The notes below the pieces were generated by a model. That model did no database searches and had not been told where the DNA came from. It saw nothing but the letters and a program-made list of their open reading frames with translations. Source: a virus. From it: a stretch of DNA of 22,802 bases. Below are positions 11,263-18,679 of this stretch, piece by piece. Position 1 is the stretch's first letter. Each line of letters starts with the position of its first letter. The DNA lies in IMG/VR virus record IMGVR_UViG_3300035672_000005, positions 1 through 22,802 of that record; one strand, given 5' to 3'. The position numbers were made by a program, and so were the translations under genes.

Positions 11263-11565
11263 ATGCGCGTCGTTCCCGCGCCCGGTCTCGTCTTGCGAGA
11301 TCCGCGCACCAAGATGCTGGTCGACCCCGAGCTGGGTGTCGAGATCGACGCCGGCGACATCACCTTCGGCTGGCTGCTGGCCCAGGGCGACATCGTCGAG
11401 CTGGCCGAAGACGCCTACCAGGCCGCCCAGGCCGAGCGCGACGCTGCCGACCAAGCCGGCGTCGACGCGGCGCTGAAGGCGGCCGCTGCAGCGCCGCCCC
11501 CGCCCGCCAAAGCCCCGCCCGCCGCGCCGGCGCCTGACGCCGCCCAGAACAAGGATGTCGCCTGA
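11263..11565 (+). CDS. DUF2635 protein (Mu gp38-like)
   Basis: The 100-residue protein begins MRVVPAPGLVLRDPRTKMLV, then a segment with GVEIDAGDITFGWLLAQGDI. This is the DUF2635 pattern of a short protein that precedes the sheath gene in Mu-like phages. The role is unknown, but it is consistently linked to contractile tails. The last about 35 residues are an Ala/Pro-rich extension that the Mu protein lacks, as far as I recall. AGGAG (11252-11256) precedes ATG 11263. The stop and the sheath start overlap (TGATG). Confidence 0.82.
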   Translation: MRVVPAPGLVLRDPRTKMLVDPELGVEIDAGDITFGWLLAQGDIVELAEDAYQAAQAERDAADQAGVDAALKAAAAAPPPPAKAPPAAPAPDAAQNKDVA

Positions 11566-13073
11566 TGCCCGGCCTCGCCTTCGCCAACATCCCGGGCAAT
11601 CTGCGCATCCCCGGGTTCTTCGCCGAGCTCAACGCCGCCAAGGCGAACACGGCGACCCAGCCGCAGCGCACTCTGATCATCGGCCAGATCCTGGCCGGCG
11701 GCCTCGCCGCGCCCAACGTGCCGCAGATCTCCGCCGGCGCCTCCGACGCCAAGGTGCAGGGTGGCCAGGGCTCGATGCTGGCGGCGATGACGGCCGCCTA
11801 CCTGCAGAACGATCCGTTCCAGGAAGTCTGGTACCTGCCCCTGGCCGACGCCGGCGGCGGCGCGGCCGGCACGGGCACGATCGCCTTCACCGGTCCCTCG
11901 AGCGCGGCCGGGACCATCAGCCTCTATGTCGGTGGCAACCTCAGCTATTACGGCCAGCCTGGCGCGATCTCCGTTCCGGTCACCTCCGGCCAGTCCGCTA
12001 CCTCCATCGGCGCCGCCGTGGCAGCGGCCATCAACGCCGTGCCGGACCTGCCCGTCACCGCCACCGCGTCCACCGGCACGGTCACTCTCAGCGCCCGCCA
12101 CAAGGGCCTGGCCGGCAACGACATCGATATCCGGCTGAACTACCAAGGCTCAGCTGGCGGCGAGGTCCTGCCCGCCGGCGTCGCGGCGGTCATCACCGCC
12201 ATATCGGGCGGCTCGACCAATCCGACCCTGACCACGGCGCTGGGCAACCTCGCCAACCTCGGCTTCGACTTCATCGTCAGTCCCTTCACCGACAACACCT
12301 CGGTCGCCGCGCTGACCGCCTTCATGAACGACACCGCCGGCCGCTGGAGCTGGCAGACCCAGACCTACGGCCATGTGTTCATCGCCAGCCGCGGCACGTT
12401 CGGGAGCCAGACCACCTTCGGCACGGCGCTCAACGACCAGCACCTGTCGGTGATGGGCTTCTTCGATTCGCCAACGCCCAATTATGTCTGGGCCGCCGCC
12501 CTGGCCGGCGCGGCTGCCGCTTCGCTGCGCGCCGACCCGGGCCTGCCCCTGCAGACGCTGGCGCTGCAGGGCGTGCTGGCCCCGCCGGTGCAGTCGCGGT
12601 TCACGCCGTCGCTGCGCAACACCCTGCTCTACGACGGCATCAGCACCTACACGGTGGACGCCGCCGGCGCGGTGCACATCGAAAACTGCATCACCACCTA
12701 CCAGCTCAACTCGACGGGCCAGCCGGACAACAGTTACCTTGAGATCGAGACCCTGTTCCTGCTGATGTACGTGCTGCGCGACCTGCGCAGCTTCCTCACC
12801 AGCAACTACGGCCGCTCCAAGCTGGCGGCTGACGGCACCCGCGCGGCGTCCGGGTCCGGCGTGGTCACGCCCTCGATCCTCAAGGCGGCCATCGTCGGCG
12901 AATACCGGCGCCTGGAAAGCCTCGGCGAGGTCCAGAACTCCGCCGCGTTCGCCGCCGGCCTGATCGTGCAGATCAGCGCCAACAACCCGAGCCGCGTCGA
13001 CATCCTCTTCGACCCGACCCTCATCGGCCAGCTGCGCATCTTCGCGGTCCTGGCCCAGTTCCGTCTGCAATAG
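11565..13073 (+). CDS. Contractile tail sheath protein (Mu gpL-like)
   Basis: The 502-residue protein would form the contractile sheath that drives the tube through the cell envelope. The N-terminal part (FANIPGNLRIPGFFAELNAA, then RTLIIGQILAGG) and the segment ALTAFMNDTAGRWSWQTQTY are typical of Mu-type sheath proteins. The middle contains a beta-rich domain with LSARHKGLAGNDIDIRLNYQ. The C-terminal part has IENCITTYQLN and LEIETLFLLMYVLRDLR. Length is close to Mu gpL (495 aa). It is translationally coupled to the DUF2635 gene. Confidence 0.95.
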   Translation: MPGLAFANIPGNLRIPGFFAELNAAKANTATQPQRTLIIGQILAGGLAAPNVPQISAGASDAKVQGGQGSMLAAMTAAYLQNDPFQEVWYLPLADAGGGAAGTGTIAFTGPSSAAGTISLYVGGNLSYYGQPGAISVPVTSGQSATSIGAAVAAAINAVPDLPVTATASTGTVTLSARHKGLAGNDIDIRLNYQGSAGGEVLPAGVAAVITAISGGSTNPTLTTALGNLANLGFDFIVSPFTDNTSVAALTAFMNDTAGRWSWQTQTYGHVFIASRGTFGSQTTFGTALNDQHLSVMGFFDSPTPNYVWAAALAGAAAASLRADPGLPLQTLALQGVLAPPVQSRFTPSLRNTLLYDGISTYTVDAAGAVHIENCITTYQLNSTGQPDNSYLEIETLFLLMYVLRDLRSFLTSNYGRSKLAADGTRAASGSGVVTPSILKAAIVGEYRRLESLGEVQNSAAFAAGLIVQISANNPSRVDILFDPTLIGQLRIFAVLAQFRLQ

Positions 13074-13085
13074 GGAAGCTGACCG

Positions 13086-13472
13086 ATGGCCCTGGCCCCT
13101 TCGCCCAACCGGCTCGCCGGCGTCGCCACGATGTCGATCGCCGGCAGCCTCTACATGATCGCCGGCGGCCTCGAATGGCGCGTCAGTGACTACAACGTCG
13201 AAACCCTCAAGGGTCAGGACGGTATCCACGGCACCAAGGAGATGCCCGAGGAGGGGATGATCAAGGCCAAGCTGCGCGACAGCGGCCAGATCTCGGTGGC
13301 CGCCCTGTCCGCTCTGCGCAACGCCCCTGTGGTGGTGCAGACGGCCACGGGCAAGATCATCTCCGGCAGCAACATGTGGCGCTCCGGCGATCCGCCCTCG
13401 GTCAGCACCGAGGATGGCACCTTCGACATCGAGTTCTCCGGCGCGGATGTCACCGAGGCGGCCACGCTGTGA
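13086..13472 (+). CDS. Tail tube protein (Mu gpM-like)
   Basis: The 128-residue protein would stack as rings inside the sheath to form the DNA channel. The segments RLAGVATMSIAGSLYMIAGG, then NVETLKGQDGIHGTKEMPEE, fit the tail tube family of Mu. The GTFDIEFSGADV end is the conserved strand. Size fits gpM (118 aa). GGGAAG (13073-13078) lies 8 nt before ATG 13086. The stop overlaps the chaperone start (GTGA). Confidence 0.92.
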   Translation: MALAPSPNRLAGVATMSIAGSLYMIAGGLEWRVSDYNVETLKGQDGIHGTKEMPEEGMIKAKLRDSGQISVAALSALRNAPVVVQTATGKIISGSNMWRSGDPPSVSTEDGTFDIEFSGADVTEAATL

Positions 13473-13765
13473 CCCAGGAGGAGATCGACGCCCTGCCGGA
13501 CGAGATGACGATCGCGCTGAAAAAGCCGGTCGAGGTCGCCGGCCAGACCTACACCACCCTGACTTTCCGTGAGCCGACCGCCGGACAGCTCAAGGAAGCC
13601 TCGGCGACGCAGACCGACATGCAGGGGACCTTCCTGCTGCTGGCGCTTAGCGCCGGCGTCGTCCCCGCCGTGATCGATCGGCTCACCGCCCGTGAGCTGA
13701 AGAAGGCCGGGGCCTTCGTGCAATCTTTTACGGAAGACGCCCAGCAGACTGGCGCGCCCGCCTGA
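13469..13765 (+). CDS. Tail assembly chaperone, short form (Mu gp41-like)
   Basis: The unshifted product is 98 residues. It starts from GTG at 13469 (MTQEEIDALPDEMTIALKKP) and contains the segment TYTTLTFREPTAGQLKEASA, which matches the small chaperones upstream of tape measure genes. Such proteins bind the tape measure protein during tail assembly and are absent from the virion. The start overlaps the tube stop. Near its end the frame carries a T-rich slippery stretch (13724-13730), and a second coding segment follows in the -1 frame. The short form ends 27 nt after a plausible shift site. Confidence 0.88.
   Translation: MTQEEIDALPDEMTIALKKPVEVAGQTYTTLTFREPTAGQLKEASATQTDMQGTFLLLALSAGVVPAVIDRLTARELKKAGAFVQSFTEDAQQTGAPA
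13724..13731 (+). promoter_or_regulatory. Probable -1 ribosomal frameshift site
   Basis: The zero-frame codons TCT TTT ACG at 13724-13732 contain TTTT at 13726-13729. A Phe tRNA on TTT (13727-13729) can re-pair perfectly with TTT one base upstream. Reading then goes on with TAC at 13729. The -1 frame is closed upstream by TGA at 13693-13695, so any shift must occur between 13696 and the zero-frame stop at 13763-13765; this is the only homopolymer-like run I see there. Confidence 0.7.
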
Positions 13766-13875
13766 TCGCGCTGGGCGTCTTCTACGCGTGGGCGTCGCCC
13801 ACCGAACTGAACAAGCTGACCTGGTCCGAGCTCGGCGACTACTGCGCCGCCATGCGGGTGATGCAGAAGGGGTGA
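13729..13875 (+). CDS. Tail assembly chaperone, -1 frame extension (Mu gp42-like)
   Basis: After a -1 shift, 48 codons are read to TGA at 13873-13875. They begin YGRRPADWRARLIALGVF and end with ELNKLTWSELGDYCAAM and a short basic tail. This is the kind of segment (W-R helix, then a YxW, then an E-L-x-x-Y helix) that forms the second half of such chaperones. No good start codon occurs before the conserved part, so it should be made only as a fusion of about 135 residues with the upstream segment. It ends 3 nt before the tape measure start. Gene finders based on start codons would miss it. Confidence 0.75.
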   Translation, partial: YGRRPADWRARLIALGVFYAWASPTELNKLTWSELGDYCAAMRVMQKG

Positions 13876-13878
13876 GGG

Positions 13879-15582
13879 ATGGCGAATTCGTTCAACATCA
13901 CCATCACCGCCGTCGACAAGGCCACGGCCGTGGTCCGCTCAGTCAAGGCATCCTTCGGCAGTTTCATGCAGCCGATCACCCAGTTCCGCACCTCGATGAG
14001 CAAGCTGTCCAAGGAGGCGGGCCTCGACAAGGTCGGCAAGGGCTTGGCCAAGGTCTCCAAGTTCGCCGGCGACGCGTTCGGCGTGGTGCAGAAGCTGGTC
14101 GGGCCGATGGGCATCATGGCCGGCGGCGTCACCATCGCCGGCATCGCCGAGTTGGCGCAGAACTGGGCCAAGCTGGGCTTCAACATCACCCAGTCGTCCG
14201 CCAACCTCGGGATGACGACAACCCGGTTTCAGCAGATGGCCGGTGCTGCGAAGCTCTTCGGTGTCGACGGCGACGCCGCGACCGCCAGCCTGATGTCGCT
14301 GAACCAGACCGTCAACGATGCCCGCTGGGGCCGAAACCAGGGCGCGCTGGCGATGATGAACCAGCTGGGCCTCCGCTTCCGCTACACCAAGGATGGCGCG
14401 GTCGACACCAAGGCGATGCTGATGCAGCTATCGGCCGTCATGCAGCGGCTTGGGCCGCAGCAGCAGCAGATGGTCGCCCAGGCGTTCGGGGTCGAGGCCC
14501 TGTTGACTGAGCTCCGGGCCGGGCCCGCCGCCGTTCAAGACGCAATGGACCGGGCGCAGAGAAGCGCCCAGTCGCCAGAGCAGATCGCCACGGCGAAAAA
14601 GATGACGGACTCGCTGAACGATCTGTGGCTGAGCGTCTCCGGCGTCTGGAACAACATCGCCGGCCGCATCTTTCCGCAGCTGACGCAGATCACCAGCACG
14701 GTCTCCGACTTCATCGTCAAGAACCAGGACGACCTCGGCCGATGGGGCGCTTACTTGCTGAAGGCCCCGATCTTTCCGCTGCTGCTCTCCAACCGTGCCG
14801 CGGGCTGGGGCCAGGAGTTCCGCCAGGTCCTCGAGACCCAGTTTGCCGGCCTGGTGCCGTTCTTCAAGAAGCTCTGGGACAATATCCTGATCGTCTTCCG
14901 CAACGCCATCACCCAGGCGCAGCAGATGGCCGGCAACCTCGTCCCGCCAGGCCTGCAGGGCCTGGTCGGCCTGGGACGCAGCGGGCTGGCCGGCATGGCA
15001 GCGGGCGCCGGTGTTGGCGCTTCCGGTCCAGCCGCCAGGGCGCTCCCGGGCAATCTGGTGACCGTGAAGAGCCGCAATGGCGTCTCGTTCGCCGTCGATT
15101 CGCGCTACGCGCAGAACTTCCTCGGCTTCGTCAACGACCTCGAGGCGACGGGCTACGATGTCCGCAGCGTGATGGGATACCAGCCGCGGAATGTGGCCGG
15201 AACCAATGTGCCCTCCTACCACGCGCAAGGCGCGGCGATCGATGTCAACCCGACCCAGAACCCGGTCGGCTCGCTGGGCAATCTGCCGCCCAATGTGCGC
15301 GCCATCGCGCGCAAGTGGGGTCTGGGGTGGGGCGAGGACTGGCGGACCAAGAAAGACCCGATGCACTTCAGCATCGCGTCACAAGAGGGCGGCAGCGTGC
15401 CGCTGAGCCGCTACGGCGGCGGTCCAGGCGGGCGCCCCGCCATGGGCAGTGTCGGCGGCGAGGTCTCGGTCAACGTCACCGTGCAGCACAACGGCAGCCA
15501 CGCCACTGCAACCACGCGCGCCACCGGCAACGTTCGCGCCCATGGCCGGGTGGTGCGTAGCCTCAATGCGGTGCCGGCGTGA
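13879..15582 (+). CDS. Tape measure protein with embedded M15 peptidase domain
   Basis: This is a 567-residue protein. Residues 1-390 are helical with Ala/Gln/Met-rich segments (FNITITAVDKATAVVRSVKA at the start, then hydrophobic patches near GIMAGGVTIAGIAELAQ). This is usual for the rod that sets tail length. Residues about 395-505 form a zinc peptidase of the M15 (VanY / L-Ala-D-Glu) type, with a YHAQGAAIDVNP motif (His448, Asp455) and a DPMHFS motif (His496). The tail (about 520-567) is beta-rich (EVSVNVTVQHNGSHATATT) like other Mu-type tape measures. The peptidase would digest peptidoglycan during DNA entry. The ATG follows the chaperone stop by 3 nt. Confidence 0.9.
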   Translation: MANSFNITITAVDKATAVVRSVKASFGSFMQPITQFRTSMSKLSKEAGLDKVGKGLAKVSKFAGDAFGVVQKLVGPMGIMAGGVTIAGIAELAQNWAKLGFNITQSSANLGMTTTRFQQMAGAAKLFGVDGDAATASLMSLNQTVNDARWGRNQGALAMMNQLGLRFRYTKDGAVDTKAMLMQLSAVMQRLGPQQQQMVAQAFGVEALLTELRAGPAAVQDAMDRAQRSAQSPEQIATAKKMTDSLNDLWLSVSGVWNNIAGRIFPQLTQITSTVSDFIVKNQDDLGRWGAYLLKAPIFPLLLSNRAAGWGQEFRQVLETQFAGLVPFFKKLWDNILIVFRNAITQAQQMAGNLVPPGLQGLVGLGRSGLAGMAAGAGVGASGPAARALPGNLVTVKSRNGVSFAVDSRYAQNFLGFVNDLEATGYDVRSVMGYQPRNVAGTNVPSYHAQGAAIDVNPTQNPVGSLGNLPPNVRAIARKWGLGWGEDWRTKKDPMHFSIASQEGGSVPLSRYGGGPGGRPAMGSVGGEVSVNVTVQHNGSHATATTRATGNVRAHGRVVRSLNAVPA

Positions 15583-16934
15583 GTCGGGGCTCCGACTTCG
15601 TCCAGGCGCTGCGCCCGGCGTCCTTCCGCGGGGTGCCGTTCGGCGTCAGCGCCTCGCGCAAGGTGTTCGGGCGCAAGACGGCCGTGCACGACTACCCGTT
15701 CCGCGACGTGGTCTGGGTCGAGGATCTGGGCCGCAAGGGCCGCCAGATCACCCTCACCGGTTTCCTGGTGGCGAACTCGCTGATCTACGGCGGCGGCGAT
15801 GTCCTCGCCCAGCAGCTGGCGCTGATCGCCGCCGTCGAGACCGCCGGACCGGGCAAGCTGATCCACCCGACCCTGGGCGCCCTCAATGTGAGCGTCACCG
15901 GCGACTGCGCGATCAACGAGAGCCTGGAGGGCGGCGGCGTCCTCGAATTCGACCTCGTGGTCACTGAGGCCGGCGAGAAGATCTTCCCGAGCATCGTGAC
16001 GGCGACGCCACAGGCGGTAACGGCCGCCGCCGCGCTCGGTGACGCCGCCACCCAGGCGGACGCCGCCATCGTCATTCCGCCCCAGCTCTCTGTCGGCGCG
16101 CTGGCGCCGATCACGGCGAGCGCGTCGATCGCCCCGTGGCTGTCAGCCATCAGTGCGGCCGGCAGGGACGCCACCAACCTCTTCAGCCTAGGCGCCCAGC
16201 TTTCCGGTGACTTCGGGCGCTTCTTCAACGGCGGCAACGTCGGCGGCCTTAGCGCCGCCTTTGCCGTGTTGCTCGGCCCGACCTCAACAATCACCACCCT
16301 GGTCGGCCTCGCAGCGTCCGCGCAGGCAAACATCGCCCGGGCGGTGCTCACCGTGCAGGCGGTGGCGGCCAACCTCGGCCTCGGCAGCTCCAACAATACT
16401 CCGACCGACCTGGCGACCGCGACGCAAGCCGTCGTGGCGACGCTGCTTGCCAGCACCGCCGATCCGGCTGACGCGGTTCGTCTGCTATCCGGTCTAGCGC
16501 AATTAACCCCTTCGGCAGCGGCAAACGGCACCCCGCTCGGGTCCGCGATCGGCGACATCGTCCGCCGCGCGGCCGCGGTCGCCCTGGCGCGTGCCGGCTC
16601 GACCTATCAGCCGGCGTCCTACGACGACGCGAACGCCGTTCGCGCCACCATCACGGCCGCGCTCGACCACGAGATCGATGTCGCGGGCGACGCCGGCGAC
16701 GACGCCAGCTTCAACGCCCTGCGCGCGCTGCGGGTCGCCGTGGTGCAGGACCTCGCGGCCCGCGGCGCCAACCTGGCCCCGATCGTCACGGTCACATCCG
16801 CCGCGCCGCTGCCGGCCGTGGTGCTGGCCCAGCGGCTCTACCGCGACGCATCGCGCGCCGACCAGCTGATCACGGAGGCGGACTGCATCTCGCCGCTGTT
16901 CATGCCGACGTCGTTCAAGGCGCTGGCGGCCTGA
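15579..16934 (+). CDS. DNA circularization / baseplate protein (Mu gpN-like)
   Basis: The 451-residue protein starts with SDFVQALRPASFRGVPFGVS and continues with KTAVHDYPFRDVVWVEDLG, then ITLTGFLVAN. This is the N-terminal signature of the DNA circularization protein N family. Mu N is a tail/baseplate protein. The middle and C-terminal parts are Ala-rich and helical. Start is GTG at 15579, overlapping the tape measure stop. Gene order tape measure, N, P, gp45 is that of Mu. Confidence 0.92.
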   Translation: MSRGSDFVQALRPASFRGVPFGVSASRKVFGRKTAVHDYPFRDVVWVEDLGRKGRQITLTGFLVANSLIYGGGDVLAQQLALIAAVETAGPGKLIHPTLGALNVSVTGDCAINESLEGGGVLEFDLVVTEAGEKIFPSIVTATPQAVTAAAALGDAATQADAAIVIPPQLSVGALAPITASASIAPWLSAISAAGRDATNLFSLGAQLSGDFGRFFNGGNVGGLSAAFAVLLGPTSTITTLVGLAASAQANIARAVLTVQAVAANLGLGSSNNTPTDLATATQAVVATLLASTADPADAVRLLSGLAQLTPSAAANGTPLGSAIGDIVRRAAAVALARAGSTYQPASYDDANAVRATITAALDHEIDVAGDAGDDASFNALRALRVAVVQDLAARGANLAPIVTVTSAAPLPAVVLAQRLYRDASRADQLITEADCISPLFMPTSFKALAA

Positions 16935-16937
16935 TCT

Positions 16938-18083
16938 GTGGCCGATGACCTCACCCTCAAGGTCGCCGGCGCGGCGATCTCCGGCTGGACTGAGCTGCGG
17001 GTGACGCGTGGCATTGAACGCTGCCCGTCCACCTTCGACATCTCGATGACCGAGCTCTTCCCCGGCAACGCCGCGCAGTTCGTCATCGAGCCCGGCGCGC
17101 CCTGCCAGGTGCTGCTCGGCGGGGATCTGGTGGTCACCGGCTATGTCGACGCCATCGCGCCGACCCTGACCGGCGGCCAGCACATCCTGCGCGTCACCGG
17201 CCGCGGCAAATGTGAAGACCTGGTCGACTGCGCCGCCGAGTGGGCGGGCGGCCAGATCAGCGGAACCTCGGCGCTCGACATCGCCACCAAGCTCGCCCAA
17301 CCCTACGGCATCACCGTCACCGGGATCGGGAGCGTCGGCGGCTCGATCGGCGCGGTCGCCGGCGCCGGGGTTGGCGACGGCGGGGCAAGTGTCGGCACGG
17401 CGCTGGCGATCATCCCGCAGTTCAACCTGATGATCGGCGAAACCGCCTACGACATCATCGAGCGCGTCTGCCGCGCCTCGCAGCTGCTGTGTTTCGAAGA
17501 CGCCAAGGGCAACCTGGTGCTCGCCCAGGCCGGTGGCCAGACCCATGCCAGCGGGGTCGCTCAAGGCCAGAACCTTCAGGAAGGCCACGCCGAGTATTCG
17601 CTGGCCGAGCGGTACTCCGAATATGACTGCTGGCTGCAGAGCATGGAGACGCTCGGCGACCTCGGGAACAACGACAACATCGTCTCCACAGCCCGGGACC
17701 CCGGCGTCACCCGCAATCGCAAGCATTTCATCATCTGCGACGGCGGCGGCCAGGGGCTGGCCCTGGCGCAGGCGCGGGTGAACTGGGAAATGAACCGGCG
17801 CATCGGCCGCGGCACCCAGCTCACTGTGACCGTCGATTCCTGGCGCGACACCGCCAGCGTGCTCTGGTCGCCCAACAACGTCATCCCGGTCGACGCACCG
17901 GCGCTGAAAAGCAACCGCGCCAGCGCCTGGCTGATCGGCGAGGTCAGCTACTTCCGCGATGAGCGTGGCACCCACGCCGAGCTGCACCTGATGCCACCGC
18001 AGGCATTCCAGCCTGAGCCCTTCCTGGTACAGCCGACCTTCCCGGACCTGACGCCCACGGTCGGCGGCCAGGTCGGCTTCTGA
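16938..18083 (+). CDS. Baseplate hub protein (Mu gpP-like, late control D type)
   Basis: The 381-residue protein has a start (LTLKVAGAAISGWTELRVTR), the following GIERCPSTFDISMTE and YVDAIAPTLTGGQHILRVTG. This is the typical beta-rich hub domain pattern, as in Mu P and T4 gp27-like proteins. It would form the trimeric central hub that holds the spike. The start is GTG at 16938, 3 nt after the gpN stop. The stop overlaps the spike gene start (TGATG). Length matches Mu P (379 aa). Confidence 0.92.
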   Translation: MADDLTLKVAGAAISGWTELRVTRGIERCPSTFDISMTELFPGNAAQFVIEPGAPCQVLLGGDLVVTGYVDAIAPTLTGGQHILRVTGRGKCEDLVDCAAEWAGGQISGTSALDIATKLAQPYGITVTGIGSVGGSIGAVAGAGVGDGGASVGTALAIIPQFNLMIGETAYDIIERVCRASQLLCFEDAKGNLVLAQAGGQTHASGVAQGQNLQEGHAEYSLAERYSEYDCWLQSMETLGDLGNNDNIVSTARDPGVTRNRKHFIICDGGGQGLALAQARVNWEMNRRIGRGTQLTVTVDSWRDTASVLWSPNNVIPVDAPALKSNRASAWLIGEVSYFRDERGTHAELHLMPPQAFQPEPFLVQPTFPDLTPTVGGQVGF

Positions 18084-18679
18084 TGGACCAGGTCCTAGCT
18101 CGCCTCTACCGGCGGCTGATGATGACCGTCGGCCGCGGGCGCGTGACCACGGTCGACGACAGCGGCTCGGTGCAGCTGCACCAGGTCGACCTGGGGCTGA
18201 TGTCTTCCAATGGCGCGCCGATGCTGGTCCGCGACAAGACGCCGGCCCTGGGCCTTTTCGGCCATGCATCCTCGCCGCCCCTGGGCGCCGACGTCGTCGT
18301 GCTGGCGCTGGGCGGCGACCAGAACAAGCTGGTGGTGATCGGCCACGGCCACCAGGCCTCGCGCCTCAAGAACCTCGAGACGGGCGACGCCGCCCTCTAC
18401 GACGTCCGCGGCGCCTATTTCTGGATGACCGCCTCCGGCCCCGTGATCGACGCAGCCGGCGGGGCGGTGACGGTGCGGAACGCCAGCAGCGTCACGGTGA
18501 CCGCAAGCGGCGCGATCACCTTCAACCCTGGTGCGCCCGGCGTTGTCATCAACGGCAACCTCGCCGTCAGCGGCGATGTCAGCCTGGGCGGGACTGCCGG
18601 GCAAGCGGTGGCGCGGGTTGGCGACGCGGTGGCGGGGGGGGTTATCACGAGCGGCGCGGCGAAGGTGAAGGCGGTATGA
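18083..18679 (+). CDS. Baseplate spike protein (Mu gp45-like)
   Basis: The 198-residue protein has an N-terminal OB-fold part (about 14-90; VGRGRVTTVDDSGSVQLHQV, and NKLVVIGHGHQASRL). A repetitive beta-helix part follows (GGAVTVRNASSVTVTASGAI and so on), as in the membrane-piercing spike of Mu and P2. The last part (ARVGDAVAGGVITSGAAKV, from residue about 176) resembles a shortened PAAR tip motif without the usual His/Cys ligands. The gene has a run of eight G at 18634-18641, and its stop overlaps the gp46 start (ATGA). Confidence 0.92.
   Translation: MDQVLARLYRRLMMTVGRGRVTTVDDSGSVQLHQVDLGLMSSNGAPMLVRDKTPALGLFGHASSPPLGADVVVLALGGDQNKLVVIGHGHQASRLKNLETGDAALYDVRGAYFWMTASGPVIDAAGGAVTVRNASSVTVTASGAITFNPGAPGVVINGNLAVSGDVSLGGTAGQAVARVGDAVAGGVITSGAAKVKAV
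18634..18641 (+). repeat. G8 homopolymer in the spike gene
   Basis: Eight G residues in a row encode part of AGGV near the spike C-terminus (codons GCG GGG GGG GTT). This is a classic slippage tract for polymerase and ribosome. After a -1 ribosomal shift (or a one-G insertion) the frame is open through the gp46 start at 18676. A one-G loss would stop after a few residues. Confidence 0.6.

Follow-up and report, generated by a model that had tools for sequence, protein, structure and literature searches.

The 22,802-nucleotide stretch of viral DNA analysed here (IMG/VR record IMGVR_UViG_3300035672_000005; in the following the window) very probably encodes, for a contractile tail of the Mu/SfV type, a tape measure protein (TMP) with a virion-associated M15 metallopeptidase as exchangeable cassette, which would cut the cell wall at entry. 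M15 is an enzyme class new to this TMP family, whereas virion-associated hydrolases in tape measures are as such already known. Tape measures are generally accepted as frequent carriers of wall hydrolases, a picture that this finding leaves unchanged. The part of the literature covered by the search contained no published description of an M15 domain in the tape measure of a Mu-like phage.

The tape measure gene and its neighbourhood

The genes of the window are arranged in the order terminase, portal, protease, head decoration, major head protein, head closure, sheath, tube, chaperone, tape measure, hub proteins, gp45-like spike, wedge proteins, and fibre. On sequence grounds, this arrangement corresponds to that of Mu/SfV-like contractile tails. 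The tail genes around the tape measure are the following:

11565..13073, plus strand: tail sheath of the Mu gpL type (phrog_165, E = 1e-175)
13086..13472, plus strand: tail tube protein (phrog_185)
13376..13765, plus strand: tail assembly chaperone, start uncertain (phrog_166)
13879..15582, plus strand: TMP gene, an open reading frame (ORF) of 567 amino acids located 3' of the chaperone and 5' of the hub gene
15579..16934, plus strand: hub or "DNA circularization" protein at the Mu gp43 position (phrog_184)
16938..18083, plus strand: baseplate hub of the Mu gpP type (phrog_177, E = 3e-107)
18083..18679, plus strand: Mu gp45-like spike (Pfam Phage_Mu_Gp45)

The sheath shares 42–50% identity with the sheaths of SfV, SfII, and phiNP. 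Residues 1–296 of the TMP matched the tape measure family phrog_2276 with an E-value of 1.2e-49 as well as several other tape measure families, and this homology, together with the location of the gene between the chaperone and hub genes, identifies the protein as a member of the Mu-like TMP family. The G + C content of the gene by codon position (0.63/0.48/0.89) is as expected for a genuine coding sequence. A search against NCBIfam gave no matches, and the searched phage collection contained no phage resembling the window at the DNA level. Of the window proteins that were scanned, none was recognised as a separate endolysin; the record may be a fragment, and an endolysin may lie outside of it. 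The chaperone ORF stops at 13765, and the −1 frame stays open to approximately 13875 with chaperone-extension-like sequence (13376–13875), which might reflect a programmed −1 frameshift near a TCT TTT ACG run.

The 567-residue protein consists of the following parts:

13879..14766, plus strand: conserved, all-helical N-terminal TMP region (residues 1–296; TMP families phrog_2276, phrog_9570, and phrog_8125)
14941..15054, plus strand: Gly/Ala/Pro-rich linker preceding the enzyme (residues 355–392; from the sequence)
15055..15402, plus strand: M15 peptidase domain (residues 393–508; Pfam PF13539)
15214..15243, plus strand: metal motif S-Y-H-A-Q-G-A-A-I-D, corresponding to SxHxxGxAxD (S446, H448, D455)
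15355..15369, plus strand: D-P-M-H-F with the predicted catalytic Asp493 and third metal ligand His496, aligning with KDYPHF of Ply500
15403..15459, plus strand: Gly-rich linker past the enzyme (residues 509–527; from the sequence and low pLDDT)
15460..15579, plus strand: conserved C-terminal tail with a beta hairpin (residues 528–567; AlphaFold2 pLDDT 81–90)

The N-terminal region is approximately 24–44% identical to its homologues and was modelled with a pLDDT above 90 at residues ~100–230, and the linker at residues 355–392 appeared unstructured in the full-length model (pLDDT < 50). The C-terminal tail, for which hairpin strands are predicted at residues 528–536 and 541–549, is common to homologous TMPs (e.g., VxVxxxxAPxGTxA). 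The M15 part was poorly predicted in the full-length model, as expected since the underlying alignment contained no other M15 row, and a fold search with this model returned only chance helical matches.

Profile, active site and fold of the M15 domain

The preliminary description had placed an M15 layout with His448, Asp455, and His496 at positions 15058–15402, an assignment that proved correct. Pfam Peptidase_M15_4 (PF13539; curated cut-off 25 bits) matched residues 441–498 with an E-value of 1.7e-12 and a score of 48.2 bits for the whole protein and 51.7 bits for the domain alone; the wider domain bounds of about 393–508 were set by comparison with relatives. The complete site reads S446-x-H448-x2-G451-x-A453-x-D455, followed by D493-P-M-H496-F, with the codons of H448 at 15220–15222, D455 at 15241–15243, D493 at 15355–15357, and H496 at 15364–15366. 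The three residues named beforehand thus belong to the site, but the predicted catalytic D493 had not been named. This residue aligns with the catalytic acid of Ply500 and PlyP56, in which SxHxxGxAxD and a later D-x-x-H provide the metal ligands and the catalytic acid (PMC5977269).

S446, H448, G451, D455, W484, D493, and H496 were invariant in 43 aligned M15 domains drawn from the window, viral contigs, and one bacterial genome; on account of these residues, degeneration to an inactive domain was rejected. The pattern S-x-H-x2-G-x-A-x-D...D-x2-H-F occurs once in the TMP and was found in none of 20,000 shuffled versions of it, by which a chance motif was likewise rejected.

Whether His448, Asp455, and His496 would surround one metal was assessed by means of the fold and the alignment to solved M15 enzymes. 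An AlphaFold2 model of the domain alone reached a pLDDT of 88 and a pTM of 0.83, and its best Foldseek matches were the M15 endopeptidases LysB4 (E = 6.8e-4), Ply500, and ChiX, followed by VanY, VanX, and hedgehog; the TM-scores of the top three solved M15 enzymes were modest (0.41–0.49). At the sequence level, a profile of the M15 domains matched Ply500 (4e-7), LysB4 (5e-5), the L-Ala-D-Glu endopeptidase 8q2g (1e-3), and ChiX (7e-3). The score above the family cut-off, the metal ligands and catalytic acid, and a fold of the hedgehog/DD-peptidase type were all found, and residues 393–508 are, as judged from the sequence and the model, an M15 peptidase domain in which no metal or catalytic residue is missing and which would bind zinc and be enzymatically active. 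Ply500 (2vo9), LysB4 (6akv), and ChiX (5opz) share the fold family and the SxHxxGxAxD/D-x-x-H site with the window domain. These M15 L-Ala-D-Glu endopeptidases, which are also the nearest solved sequences, have only about 20% identity to it and are free enzymes or endolysin domains, whereas the window domain is embedded in a virion protein.

The Pfam family is named after D-Ala-D-Ala carboxypeptidase, and the matching VanY and VanX folds point in the same direction, namely to a VanY-like D,D-carboxypeptidase or a wall-binding remnant in place of a wall-opening endopeptidase. We regard this reading as improbable, since the sequence profile matched Ply500, LysB4, 8q2g, and ChiX, with LysB4, Ply500, and ChiX also first by fold, every site residue is intact and invariant, which speaks against a remnant, and no hole would be opened by a carboxypeptidase. 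The domain therefore probably acts as an endopeptidase on L-Ala-D-Glu, a preference resting on the nearest solved relatives being endopeptidases and on the gap in the wall that a carboxypeptidase would leave unopened.

The enzyme slot and a proposed role in DNA entry

Two N-terminal alignments retrieved 126 viral loci with homologous TMPs, comprising 125 TMP ORFs of which 109 were complete; a search of the viral contigs with the whole TMP had found no relatives, and a whole-length alignment of four TMP sequences revealed no usable pattern. Slot enzymes were sought by phmmer with five seed sequences, and their positions refer to the best matching stretch only. In the same penultimate slot, 80 of the 109 complete homologues contain a peptidoglycan hydrolase (Phage_lysozyme2 in 60, SLT in 19, and Hydrolase_2 in 1), and the remaining 29, approximately a quarter, have no recognised enzyme. 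A Pfam scan of 46 representative TMPs also yielded mainly Phage_lysozyme2, SLT, and Hydrolase_2. The M15 domain was absent from all 125 homologous TMP ORFs, compared with 1.9e-60 for the window with the same profile. Two alphaproteobacterial prophage homologues (L180 and L181) have no recognisable enzyme and contain hydrophobic stretches in the middle that are possibly membrane segments.

The absence of M15 from all homologues is what might be expected if the M15 stretch were foreign to the TMP ORF, having arrived there by an assembly chimera or as a chance motif. This explanation is extremely improbable, given the result of the shuffles and the single open frame, in which codon-position bias and composition are the same throughout, the M15 stretch agreeing in composition with the remainder of the gene; furthermore, the conserved C-terminal tail resumes past the domain, and a false join would need to restore both the frame and the family tail.

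The enzyme starts at residue 365–642 (median 470) in the 80 homologues and at residue 393 in the window, and is followed by 33–168 residues (median 71) and 59 residues, respectively. This TMP family is normally built with the enzyme in an internal position ahead of a beta tail, and the enzyme class alone is unusual. The preliminary description had rightly located the domain inside the protein before a beta-rich tail, for which the predicted hairpin at residues 528–549 speaks, but this location is the rule in the family. Similarly, the rod that it called short does rank among the shorter ones of the family without being an outlier, and neither internal position nor shortness was retained as a special feature, as both the enzyme start and the number of residues past the enzyme are within the range of the homologues. 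Its main proposal, a tape measure with its own peptidoglycan hydrolase, is well supported by the identity of the TMP, the complete M15 site, and the other wall hydrolases in the homologues' slot; in terms of its sequence, the protein is a virion-associated peptidoglycan hydrolase, with a wall-cutting domain forming part of a virion protein. The Mu-like TMPs of phages phiKM1 (Komagataeibacter), phiAP1 (Acetobacter), and phiNP (Citrobacter) resemble that of the window in their homologous N-terminal half (25–28% identity), in gene order, and in an enzyme that lies in the C-terminal part before the end, but this enzyme is Phage_lysozyme2 or SLT and not M15.

For the M15 domain, we infer the following course of events, which covers its zinc and activity as well as the bond that it cuts and how and when it is delivered. 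The N-terminal and middle helices (residues ~1–354) would fill the tube and set the tail length, and the domain would hang between two flexible linkers ahead of the conserved beta-hairpin end. This end is taken to sit at the baseplate, where T5 and 80-alpha also have the C terminus of their tape measure. Upon tail contraction the TMP would be expelled, so that the domain could reach the periplasm, where it would cut a peptide bond of the wall, most likely L-Ala-D-Glu of the stem peptide, and open a local gap for the tube and the DNA. The domain may be dispensable, since 29 of the 109 complete homologous TMPs show no recognised enzyme. The linkers at residues 355–392 and 509–527 would allow it to be cleaved from the rod, as the preliminary description suggested, a speculative possibility based on analogy with T5 pb2.

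Comparable arrangements are described for T5 pb2, motif 3 of the TM4 Tmp, and the phiCbK TMP, where a peptidoglycan hydrolase in the tape measure is thought to aid DNA entry; these tape measures differ from that of the window, their tails are non-contractile, and the phiCbK domain is a CHAP domain (PMC3556154). In T5, the C-terminal end of pb2 lies in the baseplate hub, is cut after R1127, and remains in the tail, and its metallopeptidase part is muralytic and has been proposed to digest peptidoglycan once expelled (PMC10038345). The hydrolase motif of the TM4 tape measure is not essential but aids infection of stationary cells (PMC1796659).

According to the same T5 source, the tape measures of both T5 and lambda undergo cleavage while the tail is assembled (PMC10038345), and with flexible linkers on both sides of the M15 domain it could be argued that the peptidase acts in tail assembly, cutting the TMP or another tail protein instead of the wall. 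We consider this very unlikely, as the nearest solved relatives are peptidoglycan endopeptidases and the homologues' slot holds glycan cutters (SLT, Phage_lysozyme2), enzymes that suit passage through the wall rather than the processing of proteins. M15 adds a peptide-cutting class to a TMP family in which the present analysis otherwise encountered only Phage_lysozyme2, a lytic transglycosylase, one predicted hydrolase of the cell wall, or no enzyme, and the penultimate slot lends itself to comparing which wall bond must be cut by contractile phages at entry.

The same M15 domain in other carriers

Relatives of the domain elsewhere are 40–56% identical to it. The N-terminus of the window TMP was not found in any of the best 80 viral loci of a scan with the M15 domain, beyond which there were 253 weaker candidates. 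A corresponding scan of genome contigs gave one strong match, an Acuticoccus locus with the domain within an 882-residue TMP-like protein, and otherwise weak M15 enzymes. The Rhizobium phages RHph_N1_10 and V1VFA-S and those of the RHEph10 group likewise have an M15 domain within the tape measure, which is 41–43% identical to that of the window and located at residues ~940–1050 of 1,595. Unlike the window protein, these are lambda-like siphophage TMPs of ~1,540–1,600 residues that belong to the TMP_3 family, do not match in their N-terminal part, and continue for several hundred residues past the enzyme. The domain also lies within lambda-like tape measures (L053).

A member of the same M15 clade is also found in a cell-puncturing virion protein, the T4-gp5-like hub L057, where it follows the OB domain at the place where T4 has its lysozyme; this carrier is an OB/spike hub and not a tape measure. 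L057:5455–7752 and similar loci (L056, L058–L059, L062–L065, L067–L072, L074–L075, L078–L079, L081, L083, and L088) encode T4-gp5-like baseplate hubs of ~765 residues with M15 at the place of the gp5 lysozyme domain, with Gp5_OB identified in L057 and the similar loci judged by length and M15 position.

Slightly favoured is the view of a separate M15 clade with its main use in entry, which would pass from one unrelated virion protein to another as a cassette and there replace glycan-cutting lysozymes; its carriers would be Mu-like TMPs, siphophage TMPs, T4-gp5-like hubs, and multi-enzyme virion proteins. If this is true, phages can switch the bond attacked during entry and leave the carrier protein unchanged.

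Two further loci (L009:3176–6004 and L023:4822–6987) each encode a single large virion-type protein with several wall enzymes, the sets being M15, Phage_lysozyme2, and a second M15/VanY domain, or glucosaminidase and M15. In Rhizobium phage RHph_N65, M15 occurs as a smaller, separate protein of 228 amino acids.
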